Source of the DNA: Chitinophagaceae bacterium DXS
Lineage (GTDB): Bacteria; Bacteroidota; Bacteroidia; Chitinophagales; Chitinophagaceae
Assembly (NCBI GenBank): GCA_030345135.1
Contig: CP128386.1
Span: forward strand, 3,742,450-3,806,449
Reading direction: 5' to 3'
Length of the DNA stretch: 64,000 bases
A program made the position numbers and the translations under genes. Shown one piece after another: positions 5,625-55,618 of this stretch (positions within the stretch are counted from its first letter, which is position 1; each line of letters starts with the position of its first letter). The notes below the pieces were generated by a model that was not told the origin of the DNA, searched no databases, and was given only the letters and a program-made list of their open reading frames with translations.

Positions 5625-5656
5625 TTATGATTTACTAACAACAAAAAATCATAACT

Positions 5657-5932
5657 ATGAACAAAGCTGAATTGGTTGCCAAAATTGCAGAAGATGCAGG
5701 CATCACAAAAACCCAGGCCAACGCTACATTAGATTCTTTTACAACTGCTGTAGCAAAATCTTTGAAAAAAGGTGATTCTGTTACTTTAGTAGGTTTTGGT
5801 ACTTTTTCTGTTACCAAAAGAGCTGCACGTACAGGACGTAACCCACAAACAGGCGCAACTATTAAAATTGCGGCAAAAAAAGTAGCGAAATTTAAAGCTG
5901 GCGCAGATCTTGCAAAGACTGTAAACAAATAG
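5657..5932 (+). CDS. hup: HU family DNA-binding protein, copy 1
   Basis: A 91-residue HU protein. The N-terminal dimerisation helices (MNKAELVAKIAEDAGITKTQA), the FGTFSV strand and the DNA-wrapping arm with RTGRNPQTG are all present, followed by the KKVAKFKAG tail. HU dimers bend and compact DNA and are abundant nucleoid proteins. It is the first gene after a near-consensus promoter and is followed 27 bp later by a second, very similar HU gene, so the two are probably cotranscribed and may form heterodimers. Confidence 0.95.
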   Translation: MNKAELVAKIAEDAGITKTQANATLDSFTTAVAKSLKKGDSVTLVGFGTFSVTKRAARTGRNPQTGATIKIAAKKVAKFKAGADLAKTVNK

Positions 5933-5959
5933 TTTTTAATTATTTTAAATAGAACAATC

Positions 5960-6229
5960 ATGAACAAAGCTGAATTGGTAGCTAAACTTGCGGATGATGC
6001 TGGTGTAACTAAAACACAGGCTAACGCTGCATTAGATTCTTTTGTAGAAGCTGTTACTAAAACTTTAAAAGGTGGTGGTAAAGTAACGCTGGTAGGTTTC
6101 GGTACTTTCTCTGTATCTAAACGTGCTGCACGCACTGGCCGTAATCCTCAGACCGGCGAAACAATCAAAATTAAAGCGAAAAAAGTTGCTCGCTTTAAAG
6201 CTGGTAAAGAACTGTCTGAAAAAATCTAA
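5960..6229 (+). CDS. hup: HU family DNA-binding protein, copy 2
   Basis: An 89-residue HU protein nearly identical in layout to the preceding gene: MNKAELVAKLADDAGVTKTQA, FGTFSVSKRAARTGRNPQTG and KKVARFKAGKEL. The first 17 bases of the two coding regions are the same, which points to tandem duplication. It ends just before a strong terminator, so the pair makes a two-gene operon. Confidence 0.95.
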   Translation: MNKAELVAKLADDAGVTKTQANAALDSFVEAVTKTLKGGGKVTLVGFGTFSVSKRAARTGRNPQTGETIKIKAKKVARFKAGKELSEKI

Positions 6230-6250
6230 CTAGTTTGGATTATATCAAAA

Positions 6251-6286
6251 AAGCAGAAGTGTTGCATAACGCTTCTGCTTTTTTAT
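6251..6286 (+). terminator. Intrinsic terminator of the HU operon
   Basis: AAGCAGAAGTG pairs with CGCTTCTGCTT (one G.U) around an 8-nt loop, followed by six T residues. Confidence 0.9.
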
Positions 6287-6309
6287 TTCTCTCCCACTTA
6301 CATTATTTT

Positions 6310-6540
6310 TTTGGTTACACAGAGAAACAGCCGGAGAAGACACAGAGTGCCACAGAGCTTTTGCAAGTATGATCTATCATTTTCTTTGCGCTTGTCTACT
6401 TCACACGATTTAGTCGATATGGCGCTCAATACTCATCAGTTCTACTGAATATAATCAACCCACAGCACATCAATCTCTCTTACCTATCTTATAATCTTAC
6501 ACGTCTTACGGTCTTACTATCTTACTCTCTTACTGTCTTA
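6310..6540. repeat. Intergenic repeats (CACAGAG-type and TCTTACGGTCTTACTATCTTA-type)
   Basis: The gap between the HU terminator and the convergent SH3b gene holds a patch of ACACAGAG/CCACAGAG words (about 6314-6360) and a degenerate array of CTTAC words (about 6480-6540: TCTTACACGTCTTACGG and variants) that runs up to the 3' end of the neighbouring gene. No gene is seen. Confidence 0.55.
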
Positions 6541-50520: not shown

Positions 50521-51030
50521 AGTTTTTAATTTGTGTCATTGCCATCCCAATGACTTTTTTAATGGAGCGCAAAGTTGCGTTTAGTAATTGGATTTACCAA
50601 CGAATTGGAAATTTATTTTGATACACACTTCTGCAACACATTGATTTACAATAAAAAAAATGATTGCCTTTTTAAATTACAGGTGCAAATGTGCGGTAAT
50701 TAAGGATTTTTTAGGAGAAATGAAGCTGGGACCGCGATTTAAAAGATTGAGGAGATTTTTTGGATTGAGCGATAATTAATTTAAAAGTTCTTCTATTTGG
50801 AGTCATCGATTTGCAGATATGAAGGTGCTGTTTCGTCCGGGCATTTGTATGGGAGCAGCAAATTGCCGTTAAAAATTGCAGTATATTTTTCTTTTTCCGG
50901 GAAAAGGGAAAACAGATAATCGATAAAAGCCACAAGCCCCATCATACTTTACCTTTTTGCACTCTTTAAGTGAAAATTTCAATTCAAATATTTTCCTTAA
51001 AAATAATATCATAAAAAAATGTGAAAAAAA
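50521..51030. other. Divergent region upstream of rplM; possible promoter
   Basis: The region separates rplM from the tRNA-array leader. On the minus strand, TTGG at 50601-50598, a 20-bp spacer and CAACTTTG at 50577-50570 make a one-mismatch -33/-7 pair for rplM. The rest (50640-51030) is AT-rich and shows no gene that I would defend. Confidence 0.4.
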
Positions 51031-51063
51031 TTTGGAGGATTGAAAAATTAATCCAAATCTTTG
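51031..51063 (+). promoter_or_regulatory. Probable promoter of the tRNA-array transcription unit
   Basis: TTTG at 51031-51034 and AATCTTTG at 51056-51063, spaced by 21 bp, match the Bacteroidota promoter with one mismatch in the -7 box. The predicted start near 51070 lies about 20 nt before the first leader ORF. Confidence 0.55.
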
Positions 51064-51088
51064 CAACGTAAAAAATTATTAACCATAT

Positions 51089-51184
51089 ATGCCACGCATA
51101 CAATTACATATAAAATCAAATAATGAGTTTAGCCAGGAATTCGGCTATATCATTTTTGAGGCATATACTGCTGTTGATGAGTGA
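51089..51184 (+). CDS. Leader peptide 1 of the tRNA array (31 aa)
   Basis: A 31-codon ORF (ATG 51089, TGA 51182-51184) behind an A-rich leader and a plausible promoter. Of residues 4-26, 20 of 23 are amino acids whose tRNAs are encoded downstream (Ile, Gln, His, Lys, Ser, Asn, Glu, Phe, Tyr). The first eleven codons of that stretch include AUA twice, CAA, CAU, AAA, UCA, AAU twice, GAG and UUU, ten of which can be read by the array anticodons; AUA and UCA are the very codons matched by the unusual Ile-UAU and Ser-UGA genes. Codons 24-26 (GAG GCA TAT) double as the antiterminator arm. I interpret it as an attenuator leader peptide in which ribosomes stall when these tRNAs are scarce. The ORF is short, so proof of translation is needed. 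Confidence 0.7.
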   Translation: MPRIQLHIKSNNEFSQEFGYIIFEAYTAVDE

Positions 51185-51236
51185 ACCCCACAAAATCACT
51201 GAAGGATATGCCTCGCAAAAAGCGGGGCTTTTTTAT
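51130..51236 (+). promoter_or_regulatory. Transcription attenuator 1 (antiterminator/terminator pair)
   Basis: Terminator: GCCTCGC (51210-51216) pairs with GCGGGGC (51222-51228) around AAAAA, followed by T6. Competing antiterminator: GAGGCATAT (51158-51166, inside the end of leader ORF 1) is exactly complementary to ATATGCCTC (51206-51214), which overlaps the 5' arm of the terminator. A further hairpin TAGCC/GGCTA (51130-51147) could serve as pause structure. A ribosome that finishes the leader covers the 51158 arm and allows termination; one stalled at codons 4-20 leaves it free. This is the trp-type arrangement. Confidence 0.75.
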
Positions 51237-51296
51237 GTCCACAATGTCAGGCTCACAAAAAATGCGTTTCCTGGATCTGGCTAAATAATGATCAAA

Positions 51297-51458
51297 ATGA
51301 ACAAAGAATTACAACATACCCGATTTAACAAATACCGCATGAATCTCATGTTCTTATATACTGTGTGCTATAAGCTTAATCAGCCTGTGCAACATATACA
51401 GCATACAGGCAATGAGAGTAAAAGCGAATTTCCAGGACCGGCTAACGTCCATACATAA
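51297..51458 (+). CDS. Leader peptide 2 of the tRNA array (53 aa)
   Basis: A 53-codon ORF (ATG 51297, TAA 51456-51458) with an A-rich upstream region. Thirty of its 53 residues are amino acids carried by the downstream tRNAs. The opening codons AAC AAA GAA, CAA CAU, UUU AAC AAA UAC and a later run CAA CAU AUA CAG CAU are all typical of the array. It is followed by a second perfect terminator. With ORF 1 it makes two attenuators in series. It shows no similarity to a protein family that I know. Confidence 0.62.
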   Translation: MNKELQHTRFNKYRMNLMFLYTVCYKLNQPVQHIQHTGNESKSEFPGPANVHT

Positions 51459-51510
51459 GTTAATACATACTTATTTAGGGCCCGGTCACAAAATGACCGG
51501 GCTTTTTTAT
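51436..51510 (+). promoter_or_regulatory. Transcription attenuator 2
   Basis: A perfect terminator, GCCCGGTCA (51480-51488) with TGACCGGGC (51494-51502) and six T, lies 21 nt after leader ORF 2. GACCGG at 51436-51441, within codons 46-48 of the leader, is complementary to CCGGTC in the 5' arm (51482-51487), so an alternative pairing is possible, though shorter than in attenuator 1. Confidence 0.6.
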
Positions 51511-51565
51511 TGGCCCAAACGAAAGCAGCAACAAAGATGTTAAACGCTGATCCTTTTTAAACTGG

Positions 51566-51638
51566 GGCCTGTTCGTCTAACGGTTCAGGATATCACACTT
51601 TCGATGTGATGATATGGGTTCAACTCCCATACAGGCTA
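51566..51638 (+). tRNA. tRNA-Glu (UUC)
   Basis: A full cloverleaf: acceptor GGCCTGT/ACAGGCT with a G.U closing pair, D arm GTCT, anticodon arm TCACA-CTTTCGA-TGTGA with TTC, T arm ATGGG-TTCAACT-CCCAT. No CCA is encoded. The next tRNA begins one base after its discriminator. Confidence 0.9.
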
Positions 51639-51639
51639 C

Positions 51640-51712
51640 TATTGGGTGGTGCAAATGGTTAGCATTTCAGATTTTGACTCTGAAGATGCGGGTTCAAATC
51701 CGGCCCCAATAA
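51640..51712 (+). tRNA. tRNA-Gln (UUG)
   Basis: Acceptor TATTGGG/CCCAATA is perfect; D arm GTGC/GCAT; anticodon arm TCAGA-TTTTGAC-TCTGA with TTG; T arm GCGGG/CCGGC has one G-G mismatch. No CCA. Confidence 0.88.
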
Positions 51713-51719
51713 CAAACAT

Positions 51720-51792
51720 GTTGGCTTTAGCTTAACTGGCAAAGCGCCACACTGTGGATGTGGAGAACAGGGTTCGAGTCCCGGAGTCAACC
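51720..51792 (+). tRNA. tRNA-His (GUG)
   Basis: Acceptor GTTGGCT/AGTCAAC with one G.U, D arm GCTT/AAGC, anticodon arm CCACA-CTGTGGA-TGTGG with GTG, T arm CAGGG/CCCGG with one A-G mismatch. The 5' G pairs with a C near the 3' end; three bases instead of two separate acceptor and D stem, so the G-1 register is uncertain. Confidence 0.85.
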
Positions 51793-51797
51793 AAAAC

Positions 51798-51870
51798 TGA
51801 CCTGTAGCTCAATGGTAAGAGCGGTTGCCTTATACGCAAAAGGTTACCGGTTCAAGTCCGGTCAGGTCAA
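51798..51870 (+). tRNA. tRNA-Ile (UAU)
   Basis: Acceptor TGACCTG/CAGGTCA, D arm GCTC/GAGC and T arm ACCGG/CCGGT are perfect; the anticodon stem has a G-A mismatch at its base; loop CTTATAC gives TAT. Bacteria normally read AUA with a lysidine-modified CAU tRNA, so a UAU tRNA-Ile is unusual. Confidence 0.88.
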
Positions 51871-51890
51871 CAGTATACAAATACACATAA

Positions 51891-51963
51891 GATCTCGTGG
51901 CTCAACTGGCAGAGTAATCGGCTTTTAACCGATAGGTTCCGGGTTCAAATCCCGGCGGGATCA
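51891..51963 (+). tRNA. tRNA-Lys (UUU)
   Basis: Acceptor GATCTCG/CGGGATC, D arm GCTC/GAGT, anticodon arm ATCGG-CTTTTAA-CCGAT with TTT, T arm CCGGG/CCCGG: a regular cloverleaf. No CCA. Confidence 0.93.
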
Positions 51964-51967
51964 CGAA

Positions 51968-52039
51968 GGATGAATAGCTCAATGGCAGAGCTGCGGCTTG
52001 TTAAGCCGATGGTTGAAAGTTCGAATCTTTCTTCATCCG
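51968..52039 (+). tRNA. tRNA-Asn (GUU)
   Basis: Acceptor GGATGAA/TTCATCC, D arm GCTC/GAGC, loop TTGTTAA with GTT, T arm GAAAG/CTTTC. The basal anticodon-stem pair is a G-A mismatch, as in the neighbouring tRNA-Ile. Confidence 0.9.
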
Positions 52040-52045
52040 CAATGA

Positions 52046-52130
52046 GTGAGTGCGACGAAGCTGGAGAGCCGTGGCGGTCTGTAAAACCGTTGCCTTCGGG
52101 ATAAATAAGTTCGAATCTTATCACTCACAC
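52046..52130 (+). tRNA. tRNA-Tyr (GUA)
   Basis: A type II tRNA: acceptor GTGAGTG/CACTCAC, anticodon arm with CTGTAAA loop (GTA), a long variable arm containing a TTCG loop, and T arm ATAAG/CTTAT. Confidence 0.9.
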
Positions 52131-52133
52131 TTG

Positions 52134-52215
52134 GAGAGCGTCCGGTTGGTCGAGGACACTGTCTTGAAAACAGTCAGCCTTTTAGGGTCCGGGGGTTCGA
52201 ATCCCTCTCTCTCCG
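52134..52215 (+). tRNA. tRNA-Ser (UGA)
   Basis: A type II tRNA: acceptor GGAGAG/CTCTCC, anticodon arm ACTGT-CTTGAAA-ACAGT with TGA, long variable arm, T arm GGGGG/CCCTC. It starts three bases after tRNA-Tyr. Confidence 0.9.
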
Positions 52216-52237
52216 CCTTTAAATATAAGAAGCAACA

Positions 52238-52310
52238 GGTGTCTTGGCAGAGTTGGTCTATGCACCGGACTGAAAATCCGGCTAAGAAGGTTCGATTCCT
52301 TTGGACACCA
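52238..52310 (+). tRNA. tRNA-Phe (GAA)
   Basis: Acceptor GGTGTCT/GGACACC with one U.G, D arm GCA/TGC, anticodon arm CCGGA-CTGAAAA-TCCGG with GAA, regular T loop TTCGATT. It ends 29 bp before the ykuK start codon, so RNA processing must separate tRNA and mRNA. Confidence 0.92.
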
Positions 52311-52339
52311 CTTATGAAGAAAATGTAAAAAAGCATGCT

Positions 52340-52933: not shown

Positions 52934-53038
52934 ATTACACCATAGTGCAGCGGTAGTAACCTGCTGTATGCTGTTGCGTTAATATGCAATTTCCTCCAAT
53001 AACACTGTGTGTCCGGGGTTCAAGTCCCCGCGGGGCAA
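52934..53038 (+). ncRNA. tRNA-like segment 1 (degenerate)
   Basis: A perfect T arm (CGGGG-TTCAAGT-CCCCG) at about 53014-53030, followed by GGGGCAAT that can pair with ATTACACC at 52935 (two mismatches), frames about 105 nt. A D-loop-like AGCGGTAGT lies near 52949. The anticodon region is replaced by a longer stretch with a TTGC/GCAA hairpin. It is not a standard tRNA. It could be a decayed tRNA or a tRNA-like RNA partner of the slipin encoded downstream. Confidence 0.5.
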
Positions 53039-53039
53039 T

Positions 53040-53098
53040 TGCCTTGTAGCTCAGTTGGTAGAGCAACAGCTTCCATGCAGGTTCGAATCCTGCTCCGC
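53040..53098 (+). ncRNA. tRNA-like segment 2 (lacks 3' half of anticodon arm)
   Basis: GCCTTGTAGCTCAGTTGGTAGAGC is a normal tRNA 5' end with a perfect D arm, and GCAGG-TTCGAAT-CCTGC is a perfect T arm, but only about 11 nt lie between them. The 3' side of the anticodon stem and the variable loop are missing (ACAGC then TTCCATG), and the acceptor 3' strand does not pair. The surviving half loop would hold TCC (Gly-like). It keeps the elbow of a tRNA without an anticodon arm. Confidence 0.6.
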
Positions 53099-53103
53099 TG
53101 AAA

Positions 53104-53150
53104 ACGGGTAGCCTAATGGCAGGTAAAGCAGGGAAGTCCGCTGCTTCCAA
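53104..53150 (+). ncRNA. tRNA-like segment 3 (5'-half fragment)
   Basis: CGGGTAGCCTAATGGCAGG resembles the 5' end and D arm of a tRNA, and GGAAG-TCCGCTG-CTTCC is a 5-bp stem with a 7-nt loop like an anticodon arm. No T arm follows. Weak on its own, but it lies directly after segment 2 and before the slipin gene. Confidence 0.35.
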
Positions 53151-53425: not shown

Positions 53426-54526
53426 ATGAAAAATGTAAGAGTGAATGCCTACCAGGTTGGTTTGGTATTCAAACGTGGCGTATATCAACGCCTGTTGAAA
53501 GAAGGGAGCTACTGGTTTTGGGGTTTGGAAAATATCGTATTGTTTGATTTAACAAAACCATTTATCGCTCCTGTTGAGTTAAATATTCTGTTACAAGATG
53601 CTTATATCGCAGAGATGCTGGAGATTGTAATCGTCGGTGATAATGAAATCGCGTTGCAGTATGAAGATGGATTGCTGAAACAAGTGCTGACCACTGGTAG
53701 ATATGCTTATTGGAAAAATGCTATTCAACGCACTTTTGTTCGCGCTGATATTAGCAAGGTAGAAATAACCGAACCAATTGAAAGATCGGTTCTGCAAAAT
53801 AAATTGCTGGCTAACTATGTACGCAGCTTAACTGTAGAAGGTTATGAGCAGGCAATTCTTTTCGTTGACGGAAAATATGTACAAACCATTTCTGGTGGCG
53901 TATATTATTGGTGGAAGAATGCAATCTCTGTATCTATTGGTAAAGTGGATAAGCGTCAGGCACAATTGGAAATAAACGGCCAGGAAATAATAACCAGGGA
54001 TAAGGCAACATTGCGAATCAACGCATGGGCGCAGTACAAAGTTATCGACATAGAAAAAGCTCTTCTGCAAAATAAGGAGTACGATAAGCAATTGTACATT
54101 TCTTTCCAGTTGGCATTGCGGGAATACATTGCAGGCTATGGATTTGACGAACTGCTTGAAAAGAAAGAAAGCATTGCTCCTTTTGTATTGGAACGTGTAA
54201 AAGAAAACGCGATAGTGCTGGGAGTAGAAGTTACAGGCTTTGGCATCAGGGATATTATATTGCCCGGCGATATAAAAGAGATAATGAACCATGTGCTGGT
54301 TGCAGAGAAAAAAGCACAGGCAAATACCATTATGCGAAGAGAAGAAACAGCGAGCACAAGAAGCCTGTTGAATACTGCTAAACTAATGGAAGAAAATAAA
54401 ATGTTATGGAAGCTGAAAGAAATGGAGTATGTTGAAAAAATTTCAGAAAAAATCAATAACATCAGCGTAAATGGTAACGGCGCTTTAATAGAACAATTGA
54501 AATCCATCTTTATAGCTAAGAATTAA
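53426..54526 (+). CDS. Slipin/SPFH (band-7) domain protein without membrane anchor
   Basis: A 366-residue protein from ATG 53426 (MKNVRVNAYQVGLVFKRG). It shows slipin features: the N-terminal YQVGLVFKRGVYQRLLKEGSYWF, the SPFH core with VDGKYVQTISGGVYYWW and NGQEIITRDKATLRINAWAQYKV, then FVLERVKENAIVLGVEVTGFGIRDIILPGDIKEIMN and a helical C-terminus (AEKKAQANTIMRREETASTRSLLNTAKLMEEN). Classical slipins have an N-terminal hydrophobic hairpin; none is seen here, so it is probably a soluble ring- or cage-forming scaffold. Comparative genomics has linked SPFH proteins in RNA-repair loci with a tRNA-like RNA; the tRNA-like segments just upstream fit that. No RtcB ligase gene is in the window. A TTG-started extension to 53324 is not conserved-looking. 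Confidence 0.85.
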   Translation: MKNVRVNAYQVGLVFKRGVYQRLLKEGSYWFWGLENIVLFDLTKPFIAPVELNILLQDAYIAEMLEIVIVGDNEIALQYEDGLLKQVLTTGRYAYWKNAIQRTFVRADISKVEITEPIERSVLQNKLLANYVRSLTVEGYEQAILFVDGKYVQTISGGVYYWWKNAISVSIGKVDKRQAQLEINGQEIITRDKATLRINAWAQYKVIDIEKALLQNKEYDKQLYISFQLALREYIAGYGFDELLEKKESIAPFVLERVKENAIVLGVEVTGFGIRDIILPGDIKEIMNHVLVAEKKAQANTIMRREETASTRSLLNTAKLMEENKMLWKLKEMEYVEKISEKINNISVNGNGALIEQLKSIFIAKN

Positions 54527-54601: not shown

Positions 54602-55618
54602 TCAGCCTGATTTTTGTTCCCTTTTTTTCAGCTCATGTAACTGCCGGTCGTTTTCTATCAGCTTTTTGAGTTCCGCCTCTTCCGGCAAATACAACAGGTA
54701 TTTACTGGCAAAGAGCTGCCGGTTTTCAGCTAACATAGAATACTTAACGATAGTTTCATCTTTTTCAGAACATAGCAAAAGTCCAATTGTGGGATTGTCT
54801 CCGTCAGTCGTTTTCAGGTCATCATACATACGTCTGTACATGTCCATCTGGCCAATGTCCTGGTGACTCAGTTTACCTCTTTTTAAATCAATCAAAACAA
54901 AGCATTTCAGATAATAATTATAAAATACCAGGTCAATAAAATAATCCGAACTGTCGGTCACGATATGCTGTTGACGAGCCACAAAAGCAAATCCTTTACC
55001 CAGCTCCATCAAAAATTGCTGCAAATGAGTTGTCACAGCATCTTCTAAATCTTTCTCTAAAGGCAGATTTTGACCCGAGAGTCCCGCAAACTCAAGTATA
55101 TATGGATCTTTGATCAGGTCATTGACTGAAAAGGACTCTGCTAAAGACTGTTTTTGGGCTTGTTTTACATTTCGCTCAAAATATAAGCTTTGAATATTCC
55201 GGTCTAGTGTACGGCTGTTCCAATTACCTTGAATAGCTTCGTTTATATAATATGATCTTTTTTCGGACGTTTCCTGCCTGCTTATAATACGATAATGAGT
55301 CCAACTCAATTCGGTACGCACTGCGTTCCAAATTGGAAACGAGCTGTAAAAAGCCCGCATATTATTCAAATTACGTTCATCAAATCCTTTTCCAAATTCC
55401 AGTGTAAGCTGTACGCTCAGATTTTTCAGAATAGCCTTGCCATATTCCGCACGGGCATTGCCATTTTGTTCGTCCTGAACAATCAGTTTCCCAATCTGCC
55501 AATATGTGCTTAACAGTACGCTGTTAATTGATTTGAGTGTTTGTCTGCGGGATTCAACAATAATGCTCTTAATCTCATCGAATAAAGACTGTGACATTTT
55601 TAAGGTTTTGGGGTTCAT
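54602..55618 (-). CDS. yhcG: YhcG family (DUF1016) PD-(D/E)XK nuclease-like protein
   Basis: A 338-residue protein. The N-terminal helical DUF1016 domain (SIIVESRRQTLKSINSVLLSTYWQIGKLIV, GFDERNLNNMRAFY, LSWTHYRIISR) precedes a C-terminal nuclease-like domain with YFIDLVFYNYYLKCFVLIDLKRGKLSHQDIGQMDMYRRMYDD, where the Asp and Asp-x-Lys residues match the PD-(D/E)XK core. The biological role is not settled; such genes are often found near mobile and defence loci. An alternative start is at 55597 (MSQSLFDEI). It converges on the slipin gene with the terminator between them. Confidence 0.9.
   Translation of the reverse strand: MNPKTLKMSQSLFDEIKSIIVESRRQTLKSINSVLLSTYWQIGKLIVQDEQNGNARAEYGKAILKNLSVQLTLEFGKGFDERNLNNMRAFYSSFPIWNAVRTELSWTHYRIISRQETSEKRSYYINEAIQGNWNSRTLDRNIQSLYFERNVKQAQKQSLAESFSVNDLIKDPYILEFAGLSGQNLPLEKDLEDAVTTHLQQFLMELGKGFAFVARQQHIVTDSSDYFIDLVFYNYYLKCFVLIDLKRGKLSHQDIGQMDMYRRMYDDLKTTDGDNPTIGLLLCSEKDETIVKYSMLAENRQLFASKYLLYLPEEAELKKLIENDRQLHELKKREQKSG

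Follow-up and report, generated by a model that had tools for sequence, protein, structure and literature searches.

Attenuators are the textbook sensors of a single amino acid: in the known trp, his and ilv leaders, codons for one amino acid, or for a few, of the controlled pathway recur. Extra arrays of many tRNA genes reportedly occur in mycobacteria, as tRNA array units. The uORF of ilvB-II is an example of ribosome-mediated transcription attenuation, and whiB7/wblC of actinobacteria works by a Rho-independent terminator and an antiterminator, according to the part of the source available (PMC11550727). In whiB7/wblC and in toiL of E. coli, one uORF senses several translation stresses, as described in the available portions of two accounts (PMC11550727, PMC12121999). 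The Salmonella mgtCBR leader contains two short ORFs that answer to different signals, ATP and proline (PMC3641672, accessible text). In Anabaena, TrcR represses a trn array together with rtcB, the repression is relieved with translation stress, and a slipin gene is up 42-fold without TrcR (PMC10272220, as far as the accessible text goes).

The locus described here lies in a stretch of 64,000 nucleotides (the window, to which all positions refer) from the 7.29 Mb genome of Chitinophagaceae bacterium DXS. As in trp, his and ilv, a short leader ORF stands close to where the transcript begins, its control codons lie 5' of an antiterminator strand, and an antiterminator and a terminator that exclude each other precede the regulated genes. 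Unlike those leaders, the ones described here hold a broad set of amino acids, mostly once or twice each, match a tRNA array and occur in tandem, and the operon consists of tRNAs, YkuK and slipin rather than of genes for synthesis or import of the sensed amino acid, as in classical biosynthetic attenuators. Two short ORFs per leader, each with an attenuation-like mechanism, are also found in mgtCBR, but both leaders here are of the same broad composition. In the available parts of the sources, whiB7/wblC and toiL are without a codon set matched to downstream tRNA genes, and their output is a transcription factor or a toxin-antitoxin pair, unlike the tRNA array here. An extra array of many tRNA genes is common to this locus and the Anabaena trn operon, whereas control in Anabaena is by a DNA-binding repressor and here appears to lie in the leader RNA. 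We consider it quite likely from sequence comparison that the two leader-terminator units are tandem trp-type attenuators, in which a stall at almost any codon would let transcription through to the array and to the YkuK and slipin genes. In components and pairings the locus is of the known attenuator type; as judged from the sequences, the new element is on the input side, where a broad set of codons tracks the tRNA genes under its control. No comparable leader was found in the literature (open papers, and titles as listed), which is not proof of novelty.

Two tandem units, each a leader followed by a terminator, precede the array, at 51089-51228 and 51297-51504. Upstream of the first, on the + strand, are TTTG (51031-51034) and TTTGC (the -7 box, 51060-51064), a pair that we take to be a promoter of the Bacteroidota type; a sigma-70 promoter scan stayed at chance level (8 found, 9.7 expected). 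The leader 1 ORF (51089-51184, + strand; MPRIQLHIKSNNEFSQEFGYIIFEAYTAVDE) has 31 codons and a stop, as claimed in a preliminary description made from the letters of the window. The counts given there also held: 20 of the 23 residues of codons 4-26 have a tRNA downstream, and 10 of the 11 codons 4-14 are readable by the array tRNAs, two AUA and one UCA among them. Each of the nine amino acids that the array serves (E, Q, H, I, K, N, Y, S and F) occurs in codons 2-22, together with P, R, L and G. Four segments on the + strand are able to form alternative pairs. Segment 1 (51086-51096), the start-codon region, can pair with the antiterminator segment (TATATGCCACG with TGAGGCATATA). Segment 2 (51158-51166), the antiterminator strand GAGGCATAT, corresponds to codons 24-26 and is, as first described, perfectly complementary to ATATGCCTC (51206-51214), a stretch overlapping the 5' arm of terminator 1 (51210-51228, then T6); segments 3 and 4 together occupy 51206-51228. 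The single-strand fold of 51068-51187 has a z-score of -3.15. The preliminary description of a single unit was right for the first and missed the second. The leader 2 ORF (51297-51458, + strand) has 53 codons and a stop, with a possible alternative in-frame ATG at 51288, and uses 18 kinds of amino acid, all nine array ones included. Its antiterminator strand, GACCGG (51436-51441, + strand), has the partner CCGGTC (51482-51487) within terminator 2 (51478-51504, + strand; GGGCCCGGTCACAAAATGACCGGGCTT followed by T), and the region 51461-51507 folds at -20 kcal/mol (z -5.4).

The array itself, additional to the housekeeping tRNAs, is a dense run of nine tRNAs in 746 bases (51566-52311, + strand), in the order Glu UUC, Gln UUG, His GUG, Ile UAU, Lys UUU, Asn GUU, Tyr GUA, Ser UGA and Phe GAA. 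ARAGORN recovered all nine that had been read from the sequence, eight at default and tRNA-Ser(UGA) (52132-52214) at a slightly relaxed threshold, and further tRNA matches lie elsewhere in the genome. As read, tRNA-Ile(UAU) (51798-51871) is without a counterpart among the housekeeping tRNAs of this genome. Compared by eye, the anticodon loops of Glu, Gln and His, and of Asn at base 32, differ from those of housekeeping tRNAs; those of Lys, Tyr, Ser and Phe look like the housekeeping loops, and we rejected the idea that the array tRNAs are cleavage-resistant versions with changed anticodon loops. The array is followed on the + strand by a YkuK-type protein of the RNase H-like family PF04308 (52340-52825; E 2.5e-35) and a slipin-type Band 7/SPFH protein (53426-54526; PF01145, E 6.1e-27), neither of which matched known defence models. 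Between these two genes, at 52935-53150, broken tRNA-like T-arm and acceptor fragments can be discerned by eye, which suggests decay of a formerly longer array. A DUF1016/YhcG nuclease gene (54605-55618, - strand) adjoins slipin, and its best matches are the PADLOC candidate-defence models PDC-S02.

Relatives of the slipin include records from Chitinophagaceae, among them Pinibacter and Niastella. Homologues were found in 87 of 394 genomes of the family and in 20 of 395 genomes drawn from the phylum, 16 of these outside the family. Eighty of the 87 were taken (the window's own genome and G109, G225, G345, G382, G426 and G427 being omitted), and these 80 loci, 22 named loci and the window made 103 entries, or 93 non-duplicate loci. 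An array in recurring order, then YkuK and slipin, is seen in many of them. Leaders were called from an ORF length of 28-32 codons and the distance to a terminator, a rule that is blind to composition. It called leader 1 in 61 loci on the forward strand, against one call in 757,573 bases of the opposite strand; 59 were kept after removal of two false calls in slipin ends (L079 and L081), and leader 2 was present in 50 of the 59. The preliminary description held that related loci should possess a leader ORF, and by this rule 59 of the 93 have the conserved unit upstream of the array, YkuK and slipin genes: a TTTGC box, an ORF of about 30 codons and a terminator with a 5' arm that pairs with codons of about 21-28. 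TTTGC stands 21-35 nt upstream of the leader 1 ATG in 59 of 59 loci, compared with 9% of random 60-nt windows, and TTTG stands 26-32 nt upstream of TTTGC in 49 of 59 by plain count. No leader was called in 34 of the 93 loci, 13 of which have at least one tRNA; some of the uncalled loci are truncated by contig ends, and some leaders fall outside the length or start rule (e.g. L105). Twelve of the 59 loci with a leader showed no tRNA at the detection threshold used there.

Several relatives carry, between terminator 2 and the array, a small protein of about 46 residues (L104:2723-2863 and others) that was not found in the window; it has the common end HPA(A/G/E)(F/Y)(Q/N)(I/L/V)R and no Pfam match. 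Beside YkuK, relatives also have an AAA ATPase, an unknown protein of about 260 residues and a PcfJ-domain protein (L104:3957-5030 and 5649-6431; L257:5010-6260).

The leaders are unusually rich in kinds of amino acid. Leader 1 averages 18.0 kinds in about 30 codons (a mean that still contains the two false calls), compared with 14.1 in protein windows, 15.4 for pooled composition and 15.1 for random codons. In codons 2-22 of the 29 leaders that are mutually less than 50% identical, the mean is 15.4 kinds against a null mean of 12.0, and the nulls were never as diverse: the maximum of 20,000 protein-window draws was 13.0, and 5,000 pooled-composition draws never exceeded 13.5. Over the 59 loci codons 2-22 average 15.8 kinds, the leader of the window being narrow with 13. 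Windows of ten codons that end by codon 21 contain 8.3-9.2 kinds, and codons 21-30 contain 7.1, compared with 7.6 in the null; the peak thus coincides with the codons at which stalling is predicted to free the antiterminator. In 39 of 50 loci, none of the 20 amino acids is missing when the two leaders are taken together. His occurs in 56 of 59 copies of leader 1 (expected 0.31) and Cys in 46 of 50 copies of leader 2 (expected 0.29), whereas Ala, Lys, Leu and Val are rarer in leaders than in proteins. Coverage of synonymous codons is slightly above that of shuffles (17.6 versus 16.9).

The composition of leader 1 also follows the array of its own locus. In the 34 loci whose array serves four or more amino acids, codons 2-22 contain an array-served amino acid in 293 of 310 cells and a non-served one in 250 of 370 (CMH p 2.8e-8, a statistic that ignores kinship and is not tree-corrected). 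The difference between served and non-served is seen for Trp (11/11 versus 7/23), Asp (18/18 versus 9/16) and Tyr (9/9 versus 14/25); Met breaks the pattern, a served Met being present in the leader in 4 of 11 loci. An AUA codon for Ile is found in 14 of 14 loci with tRNA-Ile(UAU) and in 14 of 20 without it, and other isoacceptors are flat or few. Within 17 disjoint pairs of nearest relatives, codon and tRNA changes were concordant 22 times and discordant 4 times (p 5e-4); stricter tRNA thresholds gave 14 to 2 and 17 to 3, and counting by pair, by hand, gave 11 for, 2 against and 1 tie. In the clearest pair, L104, for which no His tRNA was found, has Asn in place of His 7, and L114, whose Asp tRNA is poor and was found only at the loosest threshold, has Gly in place of Asp 18. 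The match for leader 2 is saturated (5 to 1). The outcome of a chimera test was modest (18 to 6, p 0.02), and a tilt to the same side was seen in slipin windows (56 to 33). The codon content of related leaders, which the preliminary description expected to be other than random, is far from random and follows the local array.

Ten leaders, at loci where no tRNA was detected downstream (L085, L093, L115, L122, L128, L129, L132, L138, L143 and L144), are nevertheless diverse, with 16.1 kinds in codons 2-22. Breadth is thus not solely a shadow of the array, and the safer input is a shortage of any tRNA or general translation stress. The nine array tRNAs had been proposed as the input; all nine do occur in the leader of the window, but with array-less leaders equally diverse the sensing looks broader than that. 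The same loci also speak for a different reading, in which the operon is opened by anything that slows leader translation, above all ribosome-targeting antibiotics, and codon identity matters little. The whiB7/wblC and toiL leaders answer many inhibitors in the available portions of their descriptions (PMC11550727, PMC12121999), and antibiotics against translation switch on the trn array of Anabaena in the accessible part of its own (PMC10272220). A general translation-stress attenuator would nevertheless not account for the joint gain and loss of codons and tRNA genes (the 22 to 4 above), or for a diversity that is high in the stall-sensitive codons and drops beyond them. We regard it as unlikely.

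We also consider it improbable that the switch is real and the match between leader and array is inherited rather than selected, because relatives share both and AT-rich codons suit the array. Permutation within leader clusters reached the observed match in 0 of 5,000 trials; one cluster holds 26 of the 34 loci, so that this permutation removes little ancestry, and the CMH statistic ignores the tree. Permutation among 13 dissimilar leaders, and among the 12 that remain without the window, also gave 0 of 5,000, and these results, with the sister pairs at all three thresholds, speak against inheritance alone. The hold-out set, mostly closely similar leaders from a single genus, speaks for it. 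Announced beforehand, this set comprised loci from 20 genomes of a single further genus and from two of g115, of which 10 of 22 were called. The rule departed somewhat from the one announced: it was relaxed to take ORFs of 28-45 codons, terminators of lower strength and a gap slightly longer, and it required at least three tRNAs within 3.5 kb; the segment scored ran from codon 2 to eight before the end, compared with the announced codons 2-22. Enrichment was again found (served 76/81, other 82/119, Fisher 1.4e-5), and the 90% mark was reached, but the locus-specific match was not significant in this set (CMH p 0.16, permutation 0.11, sister test 4 to 2). Without L308 and L309, calls that look wrong, the counts were 66/70 and 62/90, the permutation 0.56 and the sister test 3 to 1. 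Ten earlier loci of other families taken alone gave 75/78 and 96/122, with a permutation value of 0.0055 and a sister test of 5 to 0. For the two sets combined, minus L308, L309 and L311 (17 loci), the figures were 135/142 and 148/198, 0.0175 and 7 to 1. In other families of the Bacteroidota, candidate leaders were found in 11 of 16 loci, with different sequences and terminators and with 16-20 kinds of amino acid (excluding L202, with 24 codons, and a short alternative in L199). Fourteen such ORFs had a mean antiterminator score of 17.4 versus 14.5 shuffled, some of the best matches being away from the ORF end.

The pairing on which the preferred reading, a pair of tandem attenuators, depends is conserved in the relatives. 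Leader 1 pairs best with the terminator arm at codons 20.7-27.7 in 58 of the 59 loci and at 19.3-24.0 in L139. The mean score of this duplex over the 59 loci is 23.2, whereas codon-shuffled leaders give 15.3 and a reversed arm gives 18.3; the duplexes of L136, L143 and L144 are not above the shuffled mean. The corresponding scores for leader 2, with the same controls, are 18.2 versus 14.9 and 14.1. Two core positions compensate: where the arm has T, the ORF has A in 5 of 7 cells, and where the arm has another base, the ORF has A in 0 of 111 (p 1.2e-7, again by a statistic that ignores kinship and is not tree-corrected). Antiterminator covariation, for which the preliminary description had suggested looking, exceeded 500 of 500 shuffles for the six-pair core and 499 of 500 for the leader 2 helix. 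For the longer helix of 13 pairs the percentage paired (75.1) was not above chance (74.4 shuffled; 85/500), and its covariation was mildly above shuffles (25/500). The terminator covaries well, none of 500 shuffles being as good. The duplex of the start-codon region with the antiterminator strand (1:2) scores 19.7 versus 14.8 shuffled, and this start-region helix could complete a trp-type logic. The comparison with 93 related loci thus supports, at the level of sequence, the trp-type attenuation that was first proposed from the window.

The short ORFs could instead encode small functional proteins, the hairpins simply ending messages. ORF length is indeed steady, mostly 29-31 codons among the first leaders of a listing that allowed 20-75 codons and took ORFs of 16 or more kinds of amino acid, the counting rule itself admitting 28-32. 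The residues, however, are not conserved: 29 of the 59 leaders are mutually less than 50% identical in codons 2-22, with diversity kept. Leader 1 of the window has no Pfam match, and the ORF end is complementary to the terminator arm, with a covarying core; we judge this explanation very improbable. A T-box-like riboswitch, which would bind uncharged tRNA directly without translation, would likewise be a terminator/antiterminator switch upstream of tRNA-related genes, but its probability is close to nil, since matches in the window at gathering score are tRNA only, the three matches in 51000-51570 at E up to 1 are all far below gathering scores and none is a T-box, and the antiterminator strand lies inside a conserved ORF.

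Computed folds relate the tandem-attenuator reading to ribosome position. For RNA extending to the terminator loop, with a ribosome stalled at codons 2-19, the antiterminator (2:3) formed in 55-58 of 59 loci; with the stall at codon 20 it formed in 41, at codon 21 in 8 and at codons 22-29 in 0-2. A footprint at codon 30 gave 2:3 in 8 of 58 loci, and an A-site at codon 31 (about the stop) in 40 of 49, a result near the stop that does not fit a simple switch. Naked RNA formed 1:2 in 57 of 59 loci before segment 3 exists, and the complete naked RNA, with segment 4 made, formed the terminator in 58 of 59. Of the foldings with and without a ribosome that were originally suggested, that of naked RNA ending in the terminator loop also departs from a simple switch: at equilibrium 2:3 is preferred to 1:2 in 57 of 59 loci. 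A ribosome-free off state would thus depend on persistence of 1:2. When the leader of the window is folded with the RNA upstream masked, the terminator comes out as the best structure (-21.2 kcal/mol) and the antiterminator as the centroid (-20.6 kcal/mol), so that kinetics would decide.

The tandem layout, the pairing with its compensated core, the codon diversity and the match of leader 1 to the array emerge directly from the comparison of loci. The leaders are presumably translated; near leaders differ weakly more at third codon positions (48, 52 and 68), an excess too weak to prove coding by that route. During undelayed reading, the ribosome would cover the antiterminator strand while the terminator forms, and transcription would stop. 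A stall anywhere from codon 2 to about codon 19 would leave the antiterminator strand free to capture the terminator arm as transcription proceeds, and readthrough would follow. The likely cause of a stall, and the presumed natural trigger, is that the matching tRNA is scarce or has been cut. With no ribosome, the start region could pair first with the antiterminator strand, giving an off state only if this early helix persists, which is the least certain step. Since most amino acids occur once or twice per leader, each leader would act as an OR gate over tRNAs, and two such gates in series would require a lasting shortage. The products would presumably replace or repair tRNAs, and a role for YkuK and slipin is likewise presumed.

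A covariance model of the leader end, run on 99 relatives with hits weaker than about E 1e-7 accepted only after reading, also gave strong hits away from slipin; 70 of the 99 genomes had some hit at E 0.01, mostly weak. Similar leaders lie upstream of the RNA ligase RtcB in three genomes (L250, where RtcB is identified by Pfam, L251 and L252). A scan about 0.2-1.2 kb upstream of 30 RtcB loci showed none; it was partly too short and missed L251 (there L285), the only one of the three that it covered. RtcB stands directly behind slipin in 6 of 13 slipin genomes compared (G003, G023, G029, G035, G036 and G051), and of these six loci a leader was called in L150, L142, L118 and L143 and not in L155 and L162. 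Further hits of the model, in the window's own genome (L259, G000:C1:7003128-7003223) and in two relatives (L254 and L255), precede an ORF that we take to be DinB-like, and the next gene in L259 looks like gatB.

On balance we lean towards a wider reading, a supply-matched alarm with a codon for each array tRNA, in which codons and tRNA genes would co-evolve one for one and the same sensor would also run RtcB, forming a replacement-and-repair regulon across the Bacteroidota. The joint loss of codons and tRNA genes makes the idea testable by single-codon changes. If true, such leaders, which sample almost the entire codon set and are rewritten along with their arrays, would be general sensors of tRNA integrity that ribosomes read directly. 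It would give a regulatory logic, linked to RNA repair through RtcB, to the extra tRNA arrays of many bacteria, and the leaders would predict which tRNAs the cell expects to lose, for example to tRNA-cutting toxins or phage defence.
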